From Alphaproteobacteria bacterium (GTDB lineage Bacteria; Pseudomonadota; Alphaproteobacteria; Micavibrionales; Micavibrionaceae): 64,000 bases of DNA. Numbering within the stretch: position 1 is the stretch's first letter; each line of letters opens with the position of its first letter. This document shows positions 26,799-63,871 of the stretch, piece after piece. Both the position numbers and the translations under genes were made by a program. The stretch is from the NCBI GenBank assembly GCA_021776025.1, contig JAJFGR010000007.1:434001-498000 (forward strand). Direction: 5' to 3'. Under the pieces are notes generated by a model. It ran no database searches. It was not told the DNA's origin and saw only the letters and a list, made by a program, of their open reading frames with translations.

Positions 26799-27287
26799 AT
26801 GCTTACTCACATTGAACAAAAACGCCTGCCATACACGCCGGAGCAAATGTTTGCGTTGGTGGCAGGTGTTGAAAAATATCATGAATTCTTGCCGTGGTGC
26901 GTGGCCAGCCGGATTAATAGCCGCGAGAGTGACACTCTTTTTTATGCTGATCTTATTGTGGGTTATAAAATGATCCGGGAGCGGTTCTCTTCGAAAGTCA
27001 TGCTGGAAGAGCCAGATCACATTTACATTGAGTATTTAAAAGGCCCGCTTAAGCATCTAAAGAACCATTGGCGGTTCATTCGCGAACCGGATGGGTCATG
27101 CATGATAGACTTCAGCGTTGAATTTGAATTTAAAAACAAAGCATTACAAGGTTTATCTCAACTATTTTTTAAAGAAGTCATTCATCGCATGGTTAGCGCT
27201 TTTGAAGGCCGCGCACTTGATGTTTACGGTAAAAAGGGGGCTCAGGCGGCGGAGGAAACAGATGCCGGGAGGGCGTCAATCTCCTGA
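26799..27287 (+). CDS. COQ10/RatA-like START-domain protein
   Basis: The 162-residue protein belongs to the polyketide-cyclase/START family that includes ubiquinone-binding COQ10 and RatA. Signatures: the N-terminal PYTPEQMFALVAGVEKYHEFLPWC, the middle RERFSSKV and HLKNHWRF, and the C-terminal FKEVIHRMVSAFEGRA helix. In Alphaproteobacteria the lipA-adjacent member is the COQ10-type, thought to chaperone ubiquinone in respiration. It begins 2 bases after lipA. The last 46 bases overlap the opposed glycosyltransferase gene, so the extreme C-terminus (after about residue 148) is likely dispensable. Confidence 0.85.
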   Translation: MLTHIEQKRLPYTPEQMFALVAGVEKYHEFLPWCVASRINSRESDTLFYADLIVGYKMIRERFSSKVMLEEPDHIYIEYLKGPLKHLKNHWRFIREPDGSCMIDFSVEFEFKNKALQGLSQLFFKEVIHRMVSAFEGRALDVYGKKGAQAAEETDAGRASIS

Positions 27288-28192
27288 TCCGTTTCGCCGT
27301 CATAAAACGGATAGCGATAGGTATAATTGATGATTTTACCATCGGTTGTTTTGAAATCCGTTGTCTGGGCGCGATCTAGACGCATTTCATCAAAGCCGGA
27401 GATATGCAGAACGCCAAGCTCTTCATGTGGCAAATGCGGCTCCACAAAAAGGTTTTTATCGTTATCCCAAAGCGGTTTGAATTCACAGAGCCAGTGGGCA
27501 TAAGCGGGTAGCGTTTCATATCCAAAATTTTCGAGGTAGCACATCTTTCCGAGGCAAAGCTGCTCAGCTGTGAAAACCTTGCCCTTTGTCATTGTTGTTT
27601 TTACAAGCTCTTGCCAACGTGGCCAATGGGGGGCGTCAGCGCGCAGAGCGAACATGCCGGCAAGTAAAACATGATAGGGCAGCAAGGCTTTTGCGGTTTT
27701 GAAGCCAAAGGGCTTTAAAGCATTTGAAAAGTAAAATCCCCGAATTTTGATAGGAAATTGTCCTAGCCATTTAACCCGGGCGCCGCCTCTGGGGTAGCTG
27801 CGGTCAACTTGCGCGGTGAGCGTGATTTTTCTTTTTTGAGCACCTTGAAGGAACATTTCGACATGGTTCCAGTTTTGCACCCAAGTATCGGCATCCATCC
27901 AGATATAGGTTTCGTAACCGGGGAAAATCTGTGGAAGAAACGGACGACATACGCACGCCTTCAGATATTCCCCTTTAATTTTATGTTTTGGGAGATCAAC
28001 AGGCCACTGCGGGTTTACGATGGTTTTCACGTGCGGTTTCAAGCGTTCAATTTGCTCAGGCTTTAGGCCGGCATCGAGAATGCAAATATCGATGTCTTTG
28101 CTCTGGGAAAAACGACGGACCGAATGGAGCCATTCTAATAGCAATGGGAAATAGTTAGAGTCACAGCCGGAGACCAGTACAGTTTTACTCAT
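27242..28192 (-). CDS. Glycosyltransferase with DxD motif
   Basis: The 316-residue cytoplasmic protein has a GT-A-like layout: an N-terminal Rossmann-like half (SKTVLVSGCDSNYFPLLLEWLHS, DICILDAG), a metal-binding DxD in YIWMDADTWVQN, then an acceptor half with LLAGMFALRADAPHW. This resembles GT8/GT2-type hexosyltransferases, but the exact family and sugar are not clear. No transmembrane helix is seen. It is the last gene of ispDF-pgpA-pncC and overlaps pncC by 8 bases. Its 3' end overlaps the COQ10-like gene by 46 bases on the opposite strand. Relatives usually lack this gene here. Confidence 0.7.
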   Translation of the reverse strand: MSKTVLVSGCDSNYFPLLLEWLHSVRRFSQSKDIDICILDAGLKPEQIERLKPHVKTIVNPQWPVDLPKHKIKGEYLKACVCRPFLPQIFPGYETYIWMDADTWVQNWNHVEMFLQGAQKRKITLTAQVDRSYPRGGARVKWLGQFPIKIRGFYFSNALKPFGFKTAKALLPYHVLLAGMFALRADAPHWPRWQELVKTTMTKGKVFTAEQLCLGKMCYLENFGYETLPAYAHWLCEFKPLWDNDKNLFVEPHLPHEELGVLHISGFDEMRLDRAQTTDFKTTDGKIINYTYRYPFYDGETDQEIDALPASVSSAA

Positions 28193-51441: not shown

Positions 51442-53623
<2,182 letters not shown>

Positions 53624-54325
53624 ATGGACGCTTTTGCAATCATTCCAGCCCGCGGCGGCTCAAAAAGGTTTCCTCGCAAAAACATTGCGGATCTAGACGG
53701 TCAGCCGCTTTTGACCTATCCGCTTAAAGCGGCTCAGGATAGCGCGGTTTTTTCGCGGGTGTTTATCAGCACAGAAGATAAAGAAATCACTGAAATCGCG
53801 CAGAAGGCTGGGGCTGAGACGCATCGGCGTAAGGATGAGTTCGCGACAGATACGGCGCATGAGCTTGATGCTTGCCTTAATCTTCTCGATGATTTAGCGG
53901 AAAATGGCGAAGCCACCCCTGAATATATTTGCGTGATATACCCCACAGCCGTTCTCGTTCAGCCGGATGATTTTGTGCAATCCAAGGCCGTTCTTGAGGA
54001 AAATTCTGATACTCATGTGATTATGTGTGTTTCGGGCTTTAATTATCATCCTTATAAGGCTTTGGTTACAAATGATGCCGGTTATCTTGAGATGCTTTAC
54101 CCGAAAGAAGGCAGAGAGCGCTCGCAGACCTACCCGCACATGGTCGCCAGCAATGGCACATTTTACTGGTTACACGTTGAAACTTTACAAAATAACCGAC
54201 ATAAGGGGTATTATCAGGATAATTTAAAGTCTTATGAAATCCCCTATCAGCGCGCCGTTGATATAGATTACCCGAAAGATTTAGATTATGCTGCTTTGAT
54301 GATGAAGATGAAGGAACAAGAATGA
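53624..54325 (+). CDS. pseF: CMP-pseudaminic acid synthetase, PseF
   Basis: The 233-residue cytidylyltransferase activates pseudaminic acid with CTP, the last step before transfer. The N-terminal AIIPARGGSKRFPRKNI is the CTP-binding signature of CMP-nonulosonate synthetases; ISTEDKEITEIAQKAG, and YPTAVLVQPDDF follow. It starts one base after the pseC stop and overlaps the methylase gene by four bases. Confidence 0.93.
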   Translation: MDAFAIIPARGGSKRFPRKNIADLDGQPLLTYPLKAAQDSAVFSRVFISTEDKEITEIAQKAGAETHRRKDEFATDTAHELDACLNLLDDLAENGEATPEYICVIYPTAVLVQPDDFVQSKAVLEENSDTHVIMCVSGFNYHPYKALVTNDAGYLEMLYPKEGRERSQTYPHMVASNGTFYWLHVETLQNNRHKGYYQDNLKSYEIPYQRAVDIDYPKDLDYAALMMKMKEQE

Positions 54326-54945
54326 GTGCTTCTTACAAGACCGAACAAGAGAATTTCTGGGCCACAGAATTTGGTGATGACTATATTGGCCGCAATACGG
54401 TTGAAGACAACCTGCCTGCCCGGTTGAAGTTATTTTCACGAATTCTTGAGCGCACGTACGGCGTTGATGAGGTTTTTGAGTTTGGCGCCAATATTGGTAA
54501 CAATCTACATGCCTTGCGGATGTTGCTGCCGGAAGCCAAGCTCAAAGCTTTGGAGATTAATGACAAAGCCGTTGAAACGCTTAAATCTTATTCATGGTTG
54601 AATGAGGTTCATCAGGGGTCCCTCCTTGATGATGTGTTTGAGAATAGTGCTGATTTGACTTTCACAAGCGGTGTGTTGATCCATATCAATCCAGACGGCC
54701 TGCAAAGCGCTTATGAGCAGCTTTACAAATCCAGCCGTAAATACGTGATGGTGTGCGAATATTACAACCCTGCCCCAGTTACCATTCCTTATCGCGGGCA
54801 TAATGACCGCTTGTTCAAAAGAGATTTCGCCGGTGAGATGATGGATAAATATCCTGATCTTAAACTTATTGATTATGGGTTTGCCTATCACCGCGATACA
54901 TCTTTTCCTATGGATGACCTCAATTGGTTCTTGATGGAAAAATAA
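54322..54945 (+). CDS. Pseudaminic acid biosynthesis-associated methylase
   Basis: The 207-residue SAM methyltransferase resembles the family annotated as pseudaminic-acid-associated methylase: YKTEQENFWATEFGDDYIGRN at the start, the SAM loop VFEFGANIGNNLHAL, and the later YNPAPVTIPYRGHNDRLFKRDF. It may methylate the sugar or an intermediate, but the product has not been proven for most members. It lies inside the Pse operon, four bases overlapping pseF. Confidence 0.85.
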   Translation: MSASYKTEQENFWATEFGDDYIGRNTVEDNLPARLKLFSRILERTYGVDEVFEFGANIGNNLHALRMLLPEAKLKALEINDKAVETLKSYSWLNEVHQGSLLDDVFENSADLTFTSGVLIHINPDGLQSAYEQLYKSSRKYVMVCEYYNPAPVTIPYRGHNDRLFKRDFAGEMMDKYPDLKLIDYGFAYHRDTSFPMDDLNWFLMEK

Positions 54946-54969
54946 GCCTTTTATTCTGACGGTAAAAAC

Positions 54970-56625
54970 ATGAAAAAAGAACATAGCGATACAACGGCTT
55001 TTCACGTACATGCGCATGAGTTAAAGCTTGACCATAACGGTATAGAAAATTTTTTTTGGCCGCTTAATCATAACGAAATTCGAGATTTTGCATCAGAGCT
55101 AATGGTCAATTTAAGCTCCTTTCTTGTTCAATTTGACGGTGATAAGGCTGATGCTGATATTTACAGGCTTGGCCTTAAATATTTCACCTCAGATGCCTGT
55201 GGCTTATACCAATCAGCGTTGTTAAAAAAACGATTTGAGCAACATAATCTAAGGGCTATAGCTCCTGAAGATTGGCCCAACTATGCCAAAGTGTTTGCGG
55301 GGCAAGCTCCGGATTCTCCACTGTTTTTAAGTAAGATGCGCACACCCCATAAAAAACATAGCTTTTTTAATCGCTTAAAATTTTCGAAAAGAAAAATTGG
55401 GCTCATCAAACAACTGTGCACTCAGAGCGTCGCGGCTAAGGGACAGTTAAATATTGATGGTTTGCTTGTAAAGCCAATAACAAAAAGCGTTTTGGAAAAA
55501 AATATTATTTCGACGCAAAGAACTGAACTTATTAAGAAGCATGCCAAACTTGAAGATAACGATGTTGTATATTGCAGTTCATTAAAATGGTTTGAGAATA
55601 TCGATAAGGCAGAATATGCAGCGGTAAAAAAAGAAACTAAAATAAAGCAATTTTTTATGGAGACTCTAGAAAAGCTTTTTTTAGAAAAAGGCGTTGATTT
55701 TCCTCAGAATTACAAAGATTTTTTTTCTTCCTATCTAGATCAACTATTTGGTGTTTTATACATACATTACAATCGCTTATTTCAAAAAGATTTACCTCAA
55801 AAAATATGGACCGGAACAGGCGGAAATATATGGGATATGATGTTACGCTTGGCTGTCATGAAACAGGGTGGATCAGCAACGGGGTATGATCATGGTGGGG
55901 GTACCGGACACGTGAATCTGGAAATGCTCGGTATAGTAGAAATGTGGGGCTGCGATAAATTTATCACTTTCAACCAAACACAAGCTACCAAGCTGACGGC
56001 GGGACTAGATATTTGGCCTTTATTAACAAATTCACCGCCGATAATAGAGGGCGTATCAACGAAAAAGAATTGTCAGCCCATTGCAACATTCTCAAAATTT
56101 GAGAATGCTGGAGAAAAAATTAATAATATTATTTTAGCGAGCACTATTTACGATTGTGACACAGGTCGGATTTTAACATTATATTCGGATATTATGTACA
56201 CAGATTGGCAAGCTCGCCTTATCGGAAAACTTAAGGGCTGGAAGTTTGATGTATTCTTTAAACCTCATCCAGAAAGCAGAATATTGCCCCATCCGGCTCT
56301 GGGAAAAGAATTAGAGGTAAAAACAATTCATGAACGTTTTGAAGACATAGTTGAACAGGGTGATCTTTTAATTTTAGATTATACATTTACTTCGATTTTT
56401 TTATCCGCTCTCAAAACGAATATCCCAATTGTTATTATTGACTTTGATGGGCTGGAATGGTTCCCAGGAACCCGTGAGCTTGCGGAAAAAAGATGTAGCA
56501 TTGTTGAAGCTATAATTGATGAGGATAACAGGGTTAATGTTAACTGGGATAAGGTTTTTCGAGCGATAGAGGAAGCACAACAAAAATCAAATAATCATGA
56601 TTTTGTTAAAACTTTTTACTTATAG
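54970..56625 (+). CDS. Unknown 551-residue protein, candidate GT-B-like pseudaminic acid transferase
   Basis: I cannot name this protein with certainty. It lacks a signal peptide or clear membrane helix. A basic middle (about residues 120-190) precedes a block with GTGGNIWDMMLR, GYDHGGGTGHVN and a C-terminal region with FFKPHPESR (431-436 for KPHPES) and GDLLILDYTFTSIFLSALKTNIP. A KPHP-type motif and a late Asp-Thr/Ser-rich strand are features of GT-B capsule, CDP-glycerol and nonulosonate transferases. Codon use is AT-richer than its neighbours. Place between the methylase and PseG-H suggests it hands Pse to its acceptor. Inference only. Confidence 0.5.
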   Translation: MKKEHSDTTAFHVHAHELKLDHNGIENFFWPLNHNEIRDFASELMVNLSSFLVQFDGDKADADIYRLGLKYFTSDACGLYQSALLKKRFEQHNLRAIAPEDWPNYAKVFAGQAPDSPLFLSKMRTPHKKHSFFNRLKFSKRKIGLIKQLCTQSVAAKGQLNIDGLLVKPITKSVLEKNIISTQRTELIKKHAKLEDNDVVYCSSLKWFENIDKAEYAAVKKETKIKQFFMETLEKLFLEKGVDFPQNYKDFFSSYLDQLFGVLYIHYNRLFQKDLPQKIWTGTGGNIWDMMLRLAVMKQGGSATGYDHGGGTGHVNLEMLGIVEMWGCDKFITFNQTQATKLTAGLDIWPLLTNSPPIIEGVSTKKNCQPIATFSKFENAGEKINNIILASTIYDCDTGRILTLYSDIMYTDWQARLIGKLKGWKFDVFFKPHPESRILPHPALGKELEVKTIHERFEDIVEQGDLLILDYTFTSIFLSALKTNIPIVIIDFDGLEWFPGTRELAEKRCSIVEAIIDEDNRVNVNWDKVFRAIEEAQQKSNNHDFVKTFYL

Positions 56626-56645: not shown

Positions 56646-58100
56646 ATGAACGCGCTTTTTCATTGTGAAGCATCGTCAGCAATTGGAACAGGACATGTAT
56701 TTCGCTGCCTCACACTAGCCAATGCTTTGGCGGAAAAGGGCTGGGTTTGTGCGTTTTTTTGCAGCGAAGAAACGCTTGAAACCGTCCCTGCCCTACAAAG
56801 TTCAGGGCTTGAGATTCATCATTCCCGAGACTCTATAGAGGCTTTTTATGACATTATTGTGATTGATAATTACGATATAGCTGCGGCGACAGAGCAGACA
56901 TTCCGCGGCATTTGCACAAAAATTGTTGTGATTGATGACCTGGCCAACAGGATGCATGCTTGTGACGTTCTCTTAGACCAAACATTAGACTGTGAAGCTT
57001 CGCATTATTCAGCTTTTGTCCCTTCTGTCTGTAACATCCTGGCCGGCGTGCCTTACGCCCTTTTGAGGCCTGAATTCATAGAATTAAGAGGAGAGGCGAT
57101 GCAAAGAAGAGAAGAAAATGCAGGCCGCGTGAAATCATTATTTGTGACAATGGGTGGAACCGATCCCCATAACGTTACATCGTTAGTTCTAAGCTCTCTT
57201 GATTACGTTGATAGTGATTTGAAGGTTGATGTGATTTTGAGTCAATCGGCGCCGCACAAGGATAAGATTGCTCAACAATGTGTCCTTCTGCGCGACAAAG
57301 GTTTTGAAATAGACTTACATTTCAGTATCTCAGATATGGGCCGTATGATGATGGAGGCCGACCTCGCCATAGGTGCGGGCGGGACCACAAGTTGGGAGCG
57401 ATGCTGCCTCAGTCTGCCTACCCTAATGGTTGAAATTGCAGATAATCAAGCTTTTGTCGCTAAAGCCTTGCATAACTCTGGGGCTGTCGTAAATTTGGGC
57501 AAGGCTGCGCAGCTTAAGGCAGAAGATGTAGCTGAAGGAATAAACAGCCTTCTGAATAGCCCAAAAGATGTTCAAAAGATGGGCATCAAAGCTGCCGGAA
57601 TCTGTGACGGTTTTGGCATCCACAGGCTCATTCCCTATCTGATTGATCAAGACCAGCTTTGGCTTCGCCGTATGGAAGAGGATGATATGCGTACGCTTTT
57701 TGAGTGGCAGCAACTGGAATCCACGCGAAAACACGCAAGAAACCCAAAACCGCCTGTTTGGGAGGAGCATGAAGAATGGTTTATGAAACAAATAAGCGAT
57801 CCACGGTCGCAGCTTTATATGATTGTCTATAAGGGTGACAACGCCGGTATGTTGAGGCTGGATAGTTATCAACATGAAGCTGAGAGCAGCCGATCCTTTG
57901 AGATATCGATATTGCTGGACCCAAAATATTACAAAAAAGGCGTGGCTTCAGACACTTTAAAACTTGTGCGTAAAATTGAACCAATCGCTGATCTGTACGC
58001 TGAAATTCTGTCGGAAAATAAAGCTTCACGAAAACTCTTTCAACGCTTAGACTATCGCCCCGTGACGGACACTTTATTTGTTCAAAAAGCTGCAAAATAA
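56646..58100 (+). CDS. pseG: PseG-PseH fusion: UDP-sugar hydrolase plus N-acetyltransferase
   Basis: The 484-residue protein joins two Pse enzymes. The N-terminal GT-B-like PseG part (about 1-330) starts HCEASSAIGTGHVFRCLTLANAL, with GTGHxxR as signature, and has MGGTDPHN and GAGGTTSWERC; it removes UDP from the diaminosugar. The C-terminal GNAT domain (about 335-484; LWLRRMEEDDMRTLFEWQ, then KKGVASDTLKLVR) matches PseH, which acetylates C4-amine. In most operons the two are separate genes. By pathway PseH acts before PseG, so the fusion could channel the intermediate. Confidence 0.9.
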   Translation: MNALFHCEASSAIGTGHVFRCLTLANALAEKGWVCAFFCSEETLETVPALQSSGLEIHHSRDSIEAFYDIIVIDNYDIAAATEQTFRGICTKIVVIDDLANRMHACDVLLDQTLDCEASHYSAFVPSVCNILAGVPYALLRPEFIELRGEAMQRREENAGRVKSLFVTMGGTDPHNVTSLVLSSLDYVDSDLKVDVILSQSAPHKDKIAQQCVLLRDKGFEIDLHFSISDMGRMMMEADLAIGAGGTTSWERCCLSLPTLMVEIADNQAFVAKALHNSGAVVNLGKAAQLKAEDVAEGINSLLNSPKDVQKMGIKAAGICDGFGIHRLIPYLIDQDQLWLRRMEEDDMRTLFEWQQLESTRKHARNPKPPVWEEHEEWFMKQISDPRSQLYMIVYKGDNAGMLRLDSYQHEAESSRSFEISILLDPKYYKKGVASDTLKLVRKIEPIADLYAEILSENKASRKLFQRLDYRPVTDTLFVQKAAK

Positions 58101-58109
58101 TAATTAAAT

Positions 58110-59291
58110 ATGAAAACATTTAAAATCGCAGATCGTGAAATTGGGGGCGACCAGCCAGCCTATATTATCGCGGAAATCTCCTGTAATCACGAAGGTGATT
58201 TTGATGAGGCGCAGAAAATTATTAAGGCTGCGGCTGAGGCTGGAGCGGATGCTGTTAAAATTCAGACCTACAAAGCCGACACGATCACCCGAAATTTTGG
58301 GACGCGCCCGAAGGGCACGATTTGGGAAGATTTAGACCTTTATAAGCTCTATGACAAAGCTCACACCCCTTGGGAATGGACGAAAGATTTAAAGGATACC
58401 GCCGATGAGCATGGCCTGCATTTTTTCTCTTCACCCTTTGATGAAACAGCCGTCGATTTCCTTGTTGATATTGGAGTCCCAGTATTGAAAATTGCGAGCT
58501 TTGAGGTGGTGGATATCAAGCTTCTTGAGCATATGGCTGCTACCGGCCTGCCTATTATCATGTCCAACGGTATGACAGATTATCTGGAGATGGATGAAGC
58601 TGTCCGAACACTGCGCGCTCATGGCTGCAGTGATCTTGCGCTTTTGCATTGTAATAGTGGTTATCCAGCCGCTTTTGATGAAGCCAATCTTCTGACCATC
58701 CCGGCGATTGAGGATATGTTTGATGCGGTAACCGGGCTTTCTGATCACACGTTGTTTGTTGAAAATGACACGTACAGCACGCCAATGGCGCATATAACAC
58801 CGGTTGAGGCTGTACGGCTTGGTGCCAAGATTGTAGAGCTTCACCTGACTCTTGACCGCGATCATGCCCGCAGCCTGTTTGAAAAGAATAAAGGCGGTTT
58901 TGACTGGCCGTTTTCCCGCAATCCTGATGAACTCAAAAAGATGACAGACATGATCCGTCATTTTGAAAAAACTGGAGAAGTTACTTATGAGAGTGAGCTT
59001 GAAAGAGACGTAGCCGCGCGGACACACGGCTCCGTTTGTTTTCAGCCGACTGAAAAAGAGATGAAAAGCCGTGAAGTGCGCCCTACTCTCTGGGTGGTTG
59101 AGGATATGAAGCAAGGCGATGTTTTCAAATGCGCCGCCAAAACGCGTGAAGGGAATTTTGATTCCATTCGCCCCGGCGGCGGCCTACATATCCGTTTCAC
59201 CGATTTTGTTGAAGGGCGCAAGGCCAGCCGCGATATGCAAGCTGGTGAGCCACTCAGTTGGGATATGTTACAAAGCGCGGGTAAAGAATAG
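58110..59291 (+). CDS. pseI: Pseudaminic acid synthase, PseI
   Basis: The 393-residue NeuB-family enzyme condenses PEP with 6-deoxy-AltdiNAc to pseudaminic acid. The barrel starts YIIAEISCNHEGDFDEAQKII, and carries KIQTYKADTIT, FSSPFDETAVDFL and GLSDHT; the late VELHLTLDRDHAR carries the conserved histidine of the EKHxTLDR element. A C-terminal SAF (antifreeze-like) domain covers about 325-393. It is about 45 residues longer than typical PseI, mainly around the barrel end. It lies 10 bases after pseG-H. Confidence 0.92.
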   Translation: MKTFKIADREIGGDQPAYIIAEISCNHEGDFDEAQKIIKAAAEAGADAVKIQTYKADTITRNFGTRPKGTIWEDLDLYKLYDKAHTPWEWTKDLKDTADEHGLHFFSSPFDETAVDFLVDIGVPVLKIASFEVVDIKLLEHMAATGLPIIMSNGMTDYLEMDEAVRTLRAHGCSDLALLHCNSGYPAAFDEANLLTIPAIEDMFDAVTGLSDHTLFVENDTYSTPMAHITPVEAVRLGAKIVELHLTLDRDHARSLFEKNKGGFDWPFSRNPDELKKMTDMIRHFEKTGEVTYESELERDVAARTHGSVCFQPTEKEMKSREVRPTLWVVEDMKQGDVFKCAAKTREGNFDSIRPGGGLHIRFTDFVEGRKASRDMQAGEPLSWDMLQSAGKE

Positions 59292-59293
59292 TC

Positions 59294-60997
59294 ATGCCTA
59301 TTATTGCCAAAAGCTCGCTTAATTTATTTGCTTATTTCTTTAAGCATTATCGTTGGCAGACCACTACGGTGGTCTTTGCCCTTATGATAGCGGGCTTTGC
59401 TGAAACGCTAGGAATTGGGGCGTTACTTCCTCTTATCTCACTGGTGATTGATGGCCAAAGCAGTGGACCAGATAGCAGTTTTCAAAGCTTTATCGTGCGA
59501 TGCCTTTCCTTGATCGGGCTGCAGCCTGATCTTGGAACATTGCTCAGCATTATTGTTGTCATGATAGTAGCCAAAGCGACGATTATCTTTTTTGCACTGC
59601 GCTATGCCGGGTTTGTTGCGGCTGATATGGCCAGAGATTTTCAGTTACGATTGATTAGGGCCCTGATGGGCGCACAATGGCAGTATTTTTCAGACCTTCC
59701 CTTAGGAATCGTTTCAAACTCAATTGCCGCGGAATCGCAGCGTGCAGGTCACAGCTATATGCTTGCCGGGCGCACACTGACCGCGCTTATACAGGTTGTT
59801 ATTTACTTATCGATTGCGTTCTTTGTCATGTGGAAGCTCAGTGTACTGGCCATAATTTTAGGCGGGGTTTTGGGTTTTGCCGTTAAGCGAGTGATGCGTA
59901 TGGCGCGCGGCGCGGGTTCTGACCTAACAACAACGATGGATACGCTGCTCGCACGTTTGAACGACTCCCTATCTGGTGCAAAACCGCTTAAAGCTATGGG
60001 GCAAGAAGAGCGTTTTTGCGCTCAGCTGAAAAAAGAGGCCGAAGACGTCGTAGACGCAAGGAAGAAGCAATATGTGTCCAATTTGCTGATTAATATTATC
60101 TACGAACCCTCCTTGGTTATCTGTCTGGCGATTGCGCTTTATTACATACTGAGTTTCACAACGACCCCTATTTCAGAAGTTTTATTGCTCGCCTTTCTGT
60201 TCCATCGCTTGATGGGGCATGTGAATAGTACGCAAAGCTTTTATCAAAATATGATCCAAAATGAAAATGCAGTGTGGTCTTTGCAAAAACAAATTGAAGA
60301 CGCCCAAGGCTATGAAGAATCTTTACATGGGGGCAAAGCGCCGGTGTTAAAAAAGCAGATTAGCCTTGAAAATGTGAACATCGCGTACAAAGACGGCACG
60401 TCTGTTTTTACGGATTTCAGCGCAACAATTCCGGCCCAAAAAGTAACCGTTATTTTCGGCCCTTCCGGCATTGGGAAAACAACGCTGACAGATGCTTTAC
60501 TTGGCCTTTTGCCGTTGCAATCGGGCATTATAAAAATTGATGATGATAACCTTGATGACATTGATTTGCGCGCTTGGCGTCATTCGATTGGTTATGTGCC
60601 GCAAGACACGTTTTTGTTTCATGACACCATTCGACAAAATGTCACTTTGGGCGATGCCTTTACCGATGAAAAAATTAAAACAGCTTTGGAAAAAGCGGCT
60701 GTTTTTGATTTTGTTGAGAGCACAGAGTGCGGCATTGAAACCATTGCGGGAGAGCGCGGCGGCAAGCTTTCAGGCGGTCAGCGCCAACGTATTGCGCTTG
60801 CACGGGCGCTTATCCGCAAACCAACCTTGCTGATTTTGGATGAGCCGACAAGCGCCCTTGATAGAAATAGCGAAGCACAGATTTTAGAAACCCTGCAAGG
60901 GCTATCAAAGGAAGTTGCCATTATTATAATTTCACACAATGAAAGTGTGTTGAAGATTGCGGATAACAAGATCAATTTGGGGCAAAAAGATGACTAA
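59294..60997 (+). CDS. ABC exporter with fused membrane and nucleotide-binding domains
   Basis: The 567-residue half-transporter has six helices in the first ~310 residues and a C-terminal ATPase: Walker A GPSGIGKTTL near 389, signature LSGGQRQRIALARAL near 491, Walker B LLILDEPTSALD. This is the MsbA/PglK-type half-ABC layout that works as a homodimer to flip lipid-linked glycans or export lipids. Context suggests export of the Pse-containing glycan or a lipid-linked precursor. The N-terminal GFAETLGIGALLPLIS resembles PglK-like flippases. It begins 2 bases after pseI and overlaps the next gene by 8. Confidence 0.85.
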   Translation: MPIIAKSSLNLFAYFFKHYRWQTTTVVFALMIAGFAETLGIGALLPLISLVIDGQSSGPDSSFQSFIVRCLSLIGLQPDLGTLLSIIVVMIVAKATIIFFALRYAGFVAADMARDFQLRLIRALMGAQWQYFSDLPLGIVSNSIAAESQRAGHSYMLAGRTLTALIQVVIYLSIAFFVMWKLSVLAIILGGVLGFAVKRVMRMARGAGSDLTTTMDTLLARLNDSLSGAKPLKAMGQEERFCAQLKKEAEDVVDARKKQYVSNLLINIIYEPSLVICLAIALYYILSFTTTPISEVLLLAFLFHRLMGHVNSTQSFYQNMIQNENAVWSLQKQIEDAQGYEESLHGGKAPVLKKQISLENVNIAYKDGTSVFTDFSATIPAQKVTVIFGPSGIGKTTLTDALLGLLPLQSGIIKIDDDNLDDIDLRAWRHSIGYVPQDTFLFHDTIRQNVTLGDAFTDEKIKTALEKAAVFDFVESTECGIETIAGERGGKLSGGQRQRIALARALIRKPTLLILDEPTSALDRNSEAQILETLQGLSKEVAIIIISHNESVLKIADNKINLGQKDD

Positions 60998-62636
60998 TTC
61001 AGCCTCCGCCATAGAGCCCGCACGCCCCTATTCCGTTGATATGTCAGATCATTCATCAGATGGCGTCCGGTGCACATACAAAGGTGATCCGGTCATAGCG
61101 AAGGCGCTTATAGAGCAGTTGAGTGCTGAGGATGTATTGGCCGGCATTGAGAAAACCCTTAAAGCTCAAAAACACTATACTGGCGGCATTATTGAGACAG
61201 AGCGCTTTACCTTCGGCTGGGCTGACCACATCAGAAGCTTTCCAATATCTTACGCTCAAAATGAAGATGAATTCTTAATATCTCCTCAAGCACTGGACGT
61301 TGTTAATCAGGCAAAGCTCACGAAACAAGATGAAGCGTCTGTCATTGAGTTTGCTATGTCCGGTTATGCTACGGGGCCCTATACGCTTTATGAAGGCTTG
61401 TATGCCTTACAACCCGGGGAGTGCGTGTTGTGGGATAAGGCAAAAAAAAAGCGTTCTAACCTGCGTTATTATCGCTACTTACCTCAACCAGCCAAGCCTG
61501 ACTGGGATGCTAATGAGCGTCAACTTGCAGACATTATGGACGAGCTGACCAAAGGTATGATTGAACGCGCTGATGGGCGTAGAATCTGGGTTCCGCTAAG
61601 TGCCGGGCTGGATTCCCGGATTATTCTGTGCAAGTTACACGAACAGGGCTACAGAAATATTGAAGCCTTCACTTACGGCCCCCGTTATAATTTTGAGTTG
61701 CTGCATGCCAAAAAAATTGCTCGCGCATTAGGCGTTCCCTGGCGGCATATCACGTTAAGCGGCAAGCAGCTCCGACGTTACTTTAAAGAAGACCGCCGTA
61801 AAAATTATTGGGCTTATGCGGGGCAGTATAAAACTATTGCGAGTATGCGTGAATATAGTGCACTTGCTTATATGCATGACAGTGGTGTGGCTCAACCCGG
61901 AGATGTGTTTATTAACGGTCAATCGGGTGATTACATTACCGGTGGCCATATATTTCCCGGGTATTTCACCAAGGGTAAAACAGATCTAAAAGGCTTCTTC
62001 GAGAATATTTTTGATAAGCATTATTCGCTTTGGCGATGTTTATTAACGTATGAATTTAAGGCGATTATTTCAAAGCGCGTTGCCACGATTATAGGTGATG
62101 AGCACCTACAAGGCGAAAGCAATGCTGAGCGAGCTGTTCAGGAAGAAATCTGGGAATATGATGCGCGGCAAATTTGCCTGGTTGCCAATGGACAGCGTTC
62201 GTATGAATTTTTCGGTTATGATTGGGAAATGCCGCTGTGGGATAAAGCCTTATGTGATTTTTACGAACATATATCGCTTGAGGAAAAGCAAGGACAGGCT
62301 CTGTATAAGCGCTATCTACAAAATTACAATTACAAGGGGTTGTTCCCTGCCAAAGAACCTAAAATATGGCGCTGGCCGGTTTATATGCTTTGGGTTTTAC
62401 CTGTGGCGCAATTTATCAAACTCGCTCAGGGTAATGATGCTAAAAACGACTTCTATGCTCTTATGAAATATCACGGACATTATTCTAATCAATATGGCTT
62501 TATTTCTTGGGAAGAGCATAAGTCCACCCACAAGACCGCGCGCAATGTCATGAGCTTATATGTACGTAGATTTTTAGTTGAGAATGGATTTAACCTCCCT
62601 CCTCTTACATCTGAGGAAAGTACTCATGTGGGTTGA
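60990..62636 (+). CDS. Asparagine-synthetase-like protein without glutaminase cysteine
   Basis: The 548-residue protein has a C-terminal PP-loop amidotransferase domain: VPLSAGLDSRIIL (SAGLDSR at 204-210), then EAFTYGPRYNFELLHAKKIARALGVPWRHI. The N-terminal half resembles an AsnB glutaminase fold (YEGLYALQPGECVLWD) but the protein begins Met-Thr-Asn, so the catalytic Cys2 is missing. It could use free ammonia or another amine to amidate, or adenylate a glycan-linked carboxylate. ATG 60990 is preferred over an upstream frame start because it overlaps the ABC stop with a GGGG-rich leader. Family function is inferred. Confidence 0.7.
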   Translation: MTNSASAIEPARPYSVDMSDHSSDGVRCTYKGDPVIAKALIEQLSAEDVLAGIEKTLKAQKHYTGGIIETERFTFGWADHIRSFPISYAQNEDEFLISPQALDVVNQAKLTKQDEASVIEFAMSGYATGPYTLYEGLYALQPGECVLWDKAKKKRSNLRYYRYLPQPAKPDWDANERQLADIMDELTKGMIERADGRRIWVPLSAGLDSRIILCKLHEQGYRNIEAFTYGPRYNFELLHAKKIARALGVPWRHITLSGKQLRRYFKEDRRKNYWAYAGQYKTIASMREYSALAYMHDSGVAQPGDVFINGQSGDYITGGHIFPGYFTKGKTDLKGFFENIFDKHYSLWRCLLTYEFKAIISKRVATIIGDEHLQGESNAERAVQEEIWEYDARQICLVANGQRSYEFFGYDWEMPLWDKALCDFYEHISLEEKQGQALYKRYLQNYNYKGLFPAKEPKIWRWPVYMLWVLPVAQFIKLAQGNDAKNDFYALMKYHGHYSNQYGFISWEEHKSTHKTARNVMSLYVRRFLVENGFNLPPLTSEESTHVG

Positions 62637-63204
62637 AATGGTGGGGCTGCCGGGCGCAGGCAAAACGACATTGATCAATAATAACCTTGATCATGTTTCA
62701 AAGCATTTTGAAATTACTGAATCCAAGCATGCATCTATCCTTCAAAAAATTTACGCTAAGACGCTTTATTACTTATTTATTGCTCCAAAGCTTGATGACA
62801 AAAAACTAGCGAAAAAGCTTTCCTACCGTTTAGCCTTCAGGCTTTTCAAACCGCGCAGCGCTACCGTTTTCTTTTTTGATTCCGGCGTCGCCCAGCTCAT
62901 TTTAGAAAATTTGCTAGAAACTAACTTTAAGGACAAGCAGGCCAAATTGGAGCTTTTGCAGAAGTTTGGCTTATCCGACACCGTCATAATTGTCAGCGAT
63001 GGTATAAGCGCGGTTATTAAGCGTGAACTCACACGCACAGATCGACGTTTTCAGTTTGATGAGGCCCAACTTCAAAAACTTTATAAAAACGCCGAAGAAA
63101 GCATCGAGAATGATTTTAGGCCTTTGTTTAAGCACGCACATATTGTAAAACCCGACGATTATAAAGGCTTTAAGGATATACTCACCAATGCGCAATCACA
63201 TTAA
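62626..63204 (+). CDS. P-loop kinase-like protein of unknown substrate
   Basis: The 192-residue protein begins MWVEMVGLPGAGKTTLINN with a Walker A at residues 7-14, followed by helices and a SDTVIIVSD strand-like Walker B region near residue 122. No lid motif identifies a specific kinase. Similar small P-loop proteins occur in capsule and LPS clusters as putative sugar or adenylyl kinases. Start chosen at ATG 62626 because of GAGGAAA six bases upstream; it overlaps the previous stop and the following start by 17 bases. Confidence 0.6.
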   Translation: MWVEMVGLPGAGKTTLINNNLDHVSKHFEITESKHASILQKIYAKTLYYLFIAPKLDDKKLAKKLSYRLAFRLFKPRSATVFFFDSGVAQLILENLLETNFKDKQAKLELLQKFGLSDTVIIVSDGISAVIKRELTRTDRRFQFDEAQLQKLYKNAEESIENDFRPLFKHAHIVKPDDYKGFKDILTNAQSH

Positions 63205-63871
63205 AAAACTCTACGCAGGCCTCTTTACCCTCGCTTACCACTTGGTTTATTGGTGTGAAGCGACGCTGCCGTTTTTTAAGCTTTATCAGCCGATCTACGG
63301 ATCAGATATGGATGATAAAAGCGTGCGTGGGTGTGAAGACCGCTGGAAAGCAATGGAGCCACATTTAAGTGGAAAAGGCGCCCTGCTCGACATTGGCTGT
63401 AATATTGGCTATTTCAGTTTTAAAGCTGCGGAAAAAGGGCATTCATCCTTTGGCGTTGAAGCAGACCCTATATATTTCTCAACATGTCAGGCGATTAAAT
63501 CCGTCCATAGCGCGGAAAATGCACATTTTATTAAAGGCTGGGTTGATGAGGATTTTCTCAATCATGCTCCGTCATTTAATACAGTCATTAATCTTTCGGT
63601 ATTCCACCACTGGGTGAAAAACTTTGGCCCTGAAAAAGCGCAAGATATGATGCGCACACTGGCGGGTAAGTGCGACAATATTGTGTTTGAAACTGGTCAG
63701 TCGAACGAGCTCACAAGTTGGGCTGATAAACTTAGCTTTATGGGGGATGACCCTAAAAAATGGATTACAGATTTTCTGAAAGACATTGGCTTTAAGAAAG
63801 TCGAAGTGATTGGGACATATCTGACCGGCTTGTCTGCTGTTCAGCGCTATATGTTTTTTGCCAGTAAGTAA
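63188..63871 (+). CDS. Class I SAM-dependent methyltransferase
   Basis: The 227-residue protein carries the SAM motif LLDIGCNIGYFSFKAAEKG near residue 66 and a following acidic strand (FGVEADP). An N-terminal hydrophobic stretch (about residues 8-22) may associate it with the membrane. FETGQSNELTSWADKL and a SVFHHW element suggest a small-molecule or glycan methyltransferase, possibly acting on the same surface sugar. Overlaps the P-loop gene by 17 bases, so it is the last gene of the visible operon. Confidence 0.75.
   Translation: MRNHIKKLYAGLFTLAYHLVYWCEATLPFFKLYQPIYGSDMDDKSVRGCEDRWKAMEPHLSGKGALLDIGCNIGYFSFKAAEKGHSSFGVEADPIYFSTCQAIKSVHSAENAHFIKGWVDEDFLNHAPSFNTVINLSVFHHWVKNFGPEKAQDMMRTLAGKCDNIVFETGQSNELTSWADKLSFMGDDPKKWITDFLKDIGFKKVEVIGTYLTGLSAVQRYMFFASK

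Follow-up and report, generated by a model that had tools for sequence, protein, structure and literature searches.

Exploring the operon for pseudaminic acid (Pse), a sugar resembling sialic acid, in a 64,000-nucleotide window (the whole stretch of DNA that was analysed), we found a gene for a 551-residue protein (54970..56625, + strand; here P0001) that is likely to be a soluble, cytoplasmic transferase of GT-B fold, using CMP-Pse as donor and placing Pse onto a glycan acceptor. The family of P0001 is probably a family of nonulosonate (NulO) transferases. Many bacteria carry genes for the synthesis of pseudaminic and legionaminic acids; to our knowledge, few of the enzymes that attach these sugars have been identified. 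If P0001 is a NulO transferase, its family, tracking NulO loci across a class, offers a defined group of enzymes for assays, and its recognition would allow annotators to name the genes and may supply catalysts for Pse-containing glycans. The wider proposal, which we rate somewhat above an even chance, is that these proteins represent a new CMP-nonulosonate transferase family at the CAZy level across Alphaproteobacteria, combining a TagF-like two-histidine layout with the HP motif of sialyltransferases, in a role possibly filled by KpsS- or FlmG-like proteins in relatives.

The reading frame and its operon

The ORF is real. It runs uninterrupted from the ATG at 54970 to the stop at 56625 and lies, as the first-pass annotation had described, between the gene of a Pse-associated methylase (54322..54945, +; TIGR03587 over cut-off) and a pseG-pseH fusion (56646..58100, +; TIGR03590 over cut-off, TIGR03585 for PseH under it at 29 vs 93). 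Stops are abundant in the one frame read of the opposite strand, and the only minus-strand ORFs of at least 60 residues overlapping the gene are of 141 residues (54592-55017) and 60 residues (56401-56583). The highest 19-residue Kyte-Doolittle mean of P0001 is 1.53 vs 2.64 in the neighbouring ABC transporter, indicating no evident membrane segment, again as annotated. The AT-rich codon use remarked upon earlier was also borne out: GC3 of the gene is 0.318, the lowest among 54 non-overlapping, mechanically called window ORFs of at least 150 residues (mean 0.470, sd 0.041). This low GC3 suggests a separate origin, and the gene may thus be a recent arrival in the pse operon.

Upstream are pseB (51442..52467, +; TIGR03589 over cut-off), pseC (52457..53623, +; TIGR03588 over cut-off) and the gene of a PseF-like CMP-Pse synthetase (53624..54325, +; TIGR03584 at 179 bits, under its cut-off of 205.7). 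The fusion gene is followed by pseI (58110..59291, +; PF03102 over cut-off, TIGR03586 at 335 with a cut-off of 340) and, 3' of it, by an ABC transporter, the proposed flippase (59294..60997, +; HepA, MsbA and PglK models all under cut-off), an asparagine-synthase-like (AsnB-like) protein (60957-62636, +), and a small protein whose P-loop matches are weak together with a methyltransferase (62578-63871, +). The latter pair adjoins again at two other loci (L017 and L177), and at L017 it lies next to AsnB- and ABC-like genes. A putative asnB also occurs in the pse glycosylation cluster of Tannerella forsythia, where one ORF is putatively tied to Pse amidination, according to excerpts of PMC6120980. 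Beyond the window, on the opposite strand, are genes for an FkbM methyltransferase, a UDP-sugar dehydrogenase and three GT4 glycosyltransferases (L114:876-6416, -), which makes the pse genes neighbours of a larger gene cluster for surface glycans.

The family and its linkage to nonulosonate genes

P0001 scored over no Pfam cut-off and over no NCBIfam cut-off, the single NCBIfam match being TIGR04331 (LIC12162 family transferase) at 21.1 bits vs 225; the protein thus stays as unrecognised as it had been called. Pfam matches to DUF4325 and CsoSCA_C were rejected, both being under cut-off and each found in one of ten members. None of nine further relatives reached an NCBIfam cut-off either; their one Pfam match at E <= 0.01 was to PF04464, by L081, a very distant relative. 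A sequence search of the PDB, single and by profile, gave no match at E <= 10. Nothing recognisable as the family was seen in open-licence literature, which for a nameless family is no proof of absence from print; the family is not described in the libraries searched.

With the own genome counted throughout, 10 of the 104 genomes of its taxonomic family contain a homologue, as do the same 10 of 142 at order level; a ten-member profile detected one in 26 of the 385 genomes sampled from the class. Plasmid records searched with P0001 and one far relative, viral contigs searched with the family profile and genome contigs searched with the P0001 sequence alone gave no match, while the family profile found six loci in the genome contigs, five of them on contigs that, judged by length, were already represented among the loci. 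Six contigs bearing relatives are from metagenome-assembled Alphaproteobacteria, one labelled Micavibrio sp.

We fetched up to 20 kb around each of 38 relative loci, the window excluded, and compared their ORFs with the pse proteins of the window. An ORF resembling PseI/NeuB or PseF was present at 31/38 loci vs 1/20 control stretches, and a PseI-like ORF alone at 25/38 vs 1/20, the controls being taken from four of the same genomes at round coordinates, not at random. The 38 loci include L080, whose ORF is under the profile threshold (30/37 without it), and count L018 and L021 separately, though they are the two ends of one gene in one genome. Some PseF-like matches are possibly other cytidylyltransferases, because PseF also matches KdsB models. 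Of the seven loci without such an ORF, two lie on short contigs (L063 and L069) yet carry PseB- and PseC-like genes, and at two more (L071 and L077) PseI- and PseF-like genes occur at a greater distance; no NulO gene was seen at L020, L073 and L082. The wider look covered four of the seven (L071, L073, L077 and L082), L020, L063 and L069 being whole contigs already. L020 has no NulO gene on its 10.8-kb contig. L073 (L073:9389-10882, -; G397:C10), a clear member, shows none over the roughly 60 kb covered of its 72-kb contig; it is a true exception to the linkage, and the substrate of this member may differ. Counted by genome, the 10 with a homologue (own genome included) all fall within the 49 of 104 family genomes that carry NeuB (Fisher p 3e-4, relatedness uncorrected). 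Genomic linkage to CMP-NulO synthesis genes, as expected of a NulO transferase, is thus a property of the family.

A homologue is lacking in 39 of the family genomes that carry NeuB; we read 11 of these 39 and scanned twelve proteins from them. The NulO clusters of three (L169:8389-9972, -; L170:8270-9931, +; L173:433-2094, -) encode KpsS-like PF05159 proteins over the Pfam cut-off, L173 barely so (20.7, cut-off 20), and these proteins are candidates for other Pse transferases. In L167 and L176, PF05159-like proteins are just under the cut-off, and in L175 a TPR protein reminiscent of FlmG (L175:2728-4236, -) adjoins a pseI-like gene. Some of these candidate genes sit several genes from pseI. 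The proteins scanned in the fetched NulO clusters of the other five genomes included no transferase candidate. The data suggest that different transferase families substitute for one another in NulO clusters.

Invariant residues, predicted fold and competing activities

An alignment of P0001 with 34 relatives (L018 and L069 partial; L021, L081 and L082 left out) shows that only four residues are identical in 35/35 sequences: H308, H433, P434 and R508. H308, the proposed catalytic histidine, is in a DHG motif (residues 307-309; 55888..55896, +) that hhalign places onto the HG/HA segment of PF04464 proteins. H433 and P434, 125 residues from H308 in P0001 when counted from H433, form the HP motif within KPHPES (residues 431-436; 56260..56277, +), followed by GDLLILDYTFTSIF (residues 464-477; 56359..56400, +), in which D465 is kept in 29/35 and D470 in 28/35 sequences; both of these segments had been pointed out in the first-pass annotation and are present. 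R508 is encoded at 56491..56493 (+). Near the N-terminus, an FFWP motif (residues 28-31; 55051..55062, +) retains W30 in 31/32 and P31 in 30/32 covering sequences. Given that divergent homologues retain the same residues, the group is a real protein family.

The AlphaFold2 model of P0001, built from seven sequences (P0001 and six relatives), has a pLDDT of 82.1 and a pTM of 0.81; a single-sequence model with a pLDDT of 34 was discarded. In the model, a helical N-terminal region precedes two Rossmann-like halves, the first at about residues 173-345 (55486..56004, +; approximate boundary from the secondary structure of the model) and the second, the proposed donor-binding half, at about residues 383-540 (56116..56589, +). 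Foldseek matched the model to eight PDB chains at E <= 0.001, namely UrdGT2, TarL with CDP-ribitol (two chains), an LPS glycosyltransferase, CalG3, a LanGT2 chimera and NeuC (two chains), all of which we take to be GT-B or GT-B-like folds; the superpositions were poor (TMq ~0.3), that of TarL extending over 501 columns at an rmsd of 16.3. VIA-align aligned mostly residues 173-551, the 50 rows listed having Z values of 10.7 down to 9.1; these rows are tied and include UDP-GlcNAc 2-epimerases as well as the CMP N-glycosidase MilB, which matched the C-terminal half only. Among the Foldseek and VIA-align matches listed no CMP-NulO enzyme stands out, and known sialyltransferase and KpsC structures are absent among the 50 VIA-align rows listed, which excludes nothing. 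Searching a viral structure library with the model gave only generic glycosyltransferase-type matches. A fold unrelated to glycosyltransferases, looked for as evidence against the transferase proposal, was not what emerged: two facing Rossmann-like domains are predicted, albeit with low TM-scores, and the modelled fold class is clearly GT-B-like, with no nearest specific enzyme singled out. The predicted fold, the NulO linkage (31/38 vs 1/20) and the invariant HP, histidine and arginine residues together uphold P0001 as a candidate nonulosonate transferase.

We infer the donor, the acceptor, the stereochemistry, the residue roles and the flippase step of the following scheme. The surrounding pse genes would make CMP-Pse, perhaps methylated or otherwise modified, and P0001, working on the cytoplasmic side, would use that CMP-sugar to transfer Pse, or its modified form, onto a glycan acceptor. 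H433-P434 would hold the donor phosphate and carboxylate, and H308 would serve as catalytic base. The acceptor would probably be a lipid-linked oligosaccharide, which the adjoining ABC transporter could then flip.

Profile-profile comparison (hhalign) of the P0001 family with PF04464 proteins gave probabilities of 88-95% in all but one of six runs, the exception being at 34% (seven proteins in the comparison set, six in a repeat without L105); hhalign E-values apply to individual comparisons. The corresponding values were 4-92% with TIGR04331-like proteins, 1-37% with PseG and <3% with PseI, PseB, PseC and PseF as unrelated controls. The PF04464 link bears on the main rival explanation, that P0001 is a TagF-like phosphotransferase whose CDP- or UDP-activated donor supplies glycerol-, ribitol- or hexose-phosphate, instead of Pse, to a Pse-containing glycan. 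It is favored further by the two-histidine signature (cf. PMC5974469) and by TarL with CDP-ribitol among the top Foldseek matches, despite the rmsd over those columns. We consider this activity unlikely: the family follows NulO genes, P0001 and nine relatives have no match to the PF04464 model at E <= 1 while the distant L081 ORF passes, and in the own genome no CDP-glycerol cytidylyltransferase was over cut-off (best 32 bits vs 165, in a 519-residue frame), in a search whose control was positive in 12 genomes, over cut-off in two, and which is silent on UDP-sugar donors.

Other glycosyltransferases in or near the window, the three of GT4 and one GT8-like, are a point against assigning Pse transfer to P0001. 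The GT8-like protein (27242-28192, -; PF01501 at 29 bits vs a cut-off of 24.3) is distant from the pse cluster; it is the one protein scanned from positions 1-48000, which were searched for other transferases by eye, and the remaining window genes look housekeeping-like by eye. Ten other cluster ORFs of the window had no glycosyltransferase family match except PseG (GT28-like fold). It is conceivable, though improbable enough to rank below the phosphotransferase, that P0001 adds a neutral sugar beside Pse from another sugar nucleotide and that the Pse transferase is encoded elsewhere. Many UDP- and dTDP-sugar enzymes among the listed fold matches, and homologues in clusters whose NulO gene content varies, are consistent with such an activity; the invariance of the HP motif and the position of the gene inside the pse operon argue against it. 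So does the search for another Pse transferase: neither PF01973 nor PF20157 picks out the Maf-type enzyme that was looked for in the genome, an absence that is not proven given that the PF01973 control gave a signal in archaea alone and that of PF20157 gave none, and PF05159 has no match in the genome, with a control positive in E. coli and B. subtilis. Very unlikely is a NulO-modifying enzyme (acyl, glyceryl or other transfer, before or after activation) or a non-catalytic protein with a GT-B-like fold, which would suit a cluster with probable modifying genes (Pse methylase, AsnB-like protein), since the two invariant histidines and the invariant arginine suggest catalysis and none of the 50 PDB matches listed carries an acyltransferase name.

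Comparison with known transferases

The reading of P0001 as a CMP-Pse-dependent transferase can be set beside several known systems. FlmG, the flagellin glycosyltransferase of Caulobacter, uses Pse. As described in parts of PMC7591256, it is cytoplasmic, with a GT-B-like domain and N-terminal TPR; by this description both proteins are alphaproteobacterial and GT-B-like, and the TPR of FlmG contrasts with no TPR match in P0001. KpsS1, the founder of GT118, is a retaining Pse transferase related to KpsS, with kin of modified GT-B fold and the glutamate of a YE motif proposed as catalytic base (excerpts of PMC12887879). By description, it resembles P0001 in the Pse transferase role and in GT-B kin. 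Kinship of P0001 with PF05159 (KpsC/KpsS) was rejected: there was no match at E <= 1, and hhalign gave <1% with six alphaproteobacterial PF05159 proteins. The Maf models PF01973 and PF20157 also had no match to P0001 at E <= 1. The LIC12162 family (TIGR04331) weakly matches the C-terminal half (E 1e-4; 21 bits vs 225), and L111, a TIGR04331-like protein, has HG and acidic-S/T segments in common with P0001 but is without the HP motif.

In T. forsythia, GtfS is a GT-B Pse transferase of the pse cluster whose deletion leads to loss of terminal Pse (PMC6120980). Both GtfS and P0001 are thus GT-B or GT-B-like proteins of a pse cluster, of 445 and 551 residues, respectively, as compared by description and not by sequence. 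Passages of PMC7439481 present two T. forsythia TagB-domain enzymes, one of which is presumably GtfS, as plausible Pse and Leg transferases, so that the idea of a TagB-like NulO transferase is, as far as those passages go, already known. The same passages describe a TagB-domain protein encoded in a legionaminic acid operon of Bacillus subtilis, SpsB, which has HP motifs, as dispensable for Leg transfer; this is a warning against the transferase reading of P0001.

The TagF/TagB-like transferases of PF04464, TarL included, use cytidine-nucleotide donors. P0001 resembles them in having two key histidines about 130 residues apart and an HP followed by a D-x-S/T segment, H308 and H433 corresponding to the two-histidine pattern of PF04464; it differs in its longer, helical N-terminus and in the position of its gene with NulO genes. 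In TagF-like domains two histidines are catalytically important, those of Cps7D being H612 and H743, 131 apart (PMC5974469, in part). With the sialyl- and polysialyltransferases of GT38, GT52 and GT80, P0001 shares the HP motif, whereas their D/E-D/E-G motif is absent from the P0001 sequence, and a PF07388 match occurs in one of ten family members scanned, at an E of only 0.038. According to portions of PMC2169525, the HP motif takes part in CMP-Neu5Ac binding in a polysialyltransferase and in PmST1, where its histidine is in contact with both the phosphate of CMP and the carboxylate of sialic acid. With this His/HP arrangement in common, an evolutionary link between teichoic-acid-type and sialyl-type transferases becomes testable.
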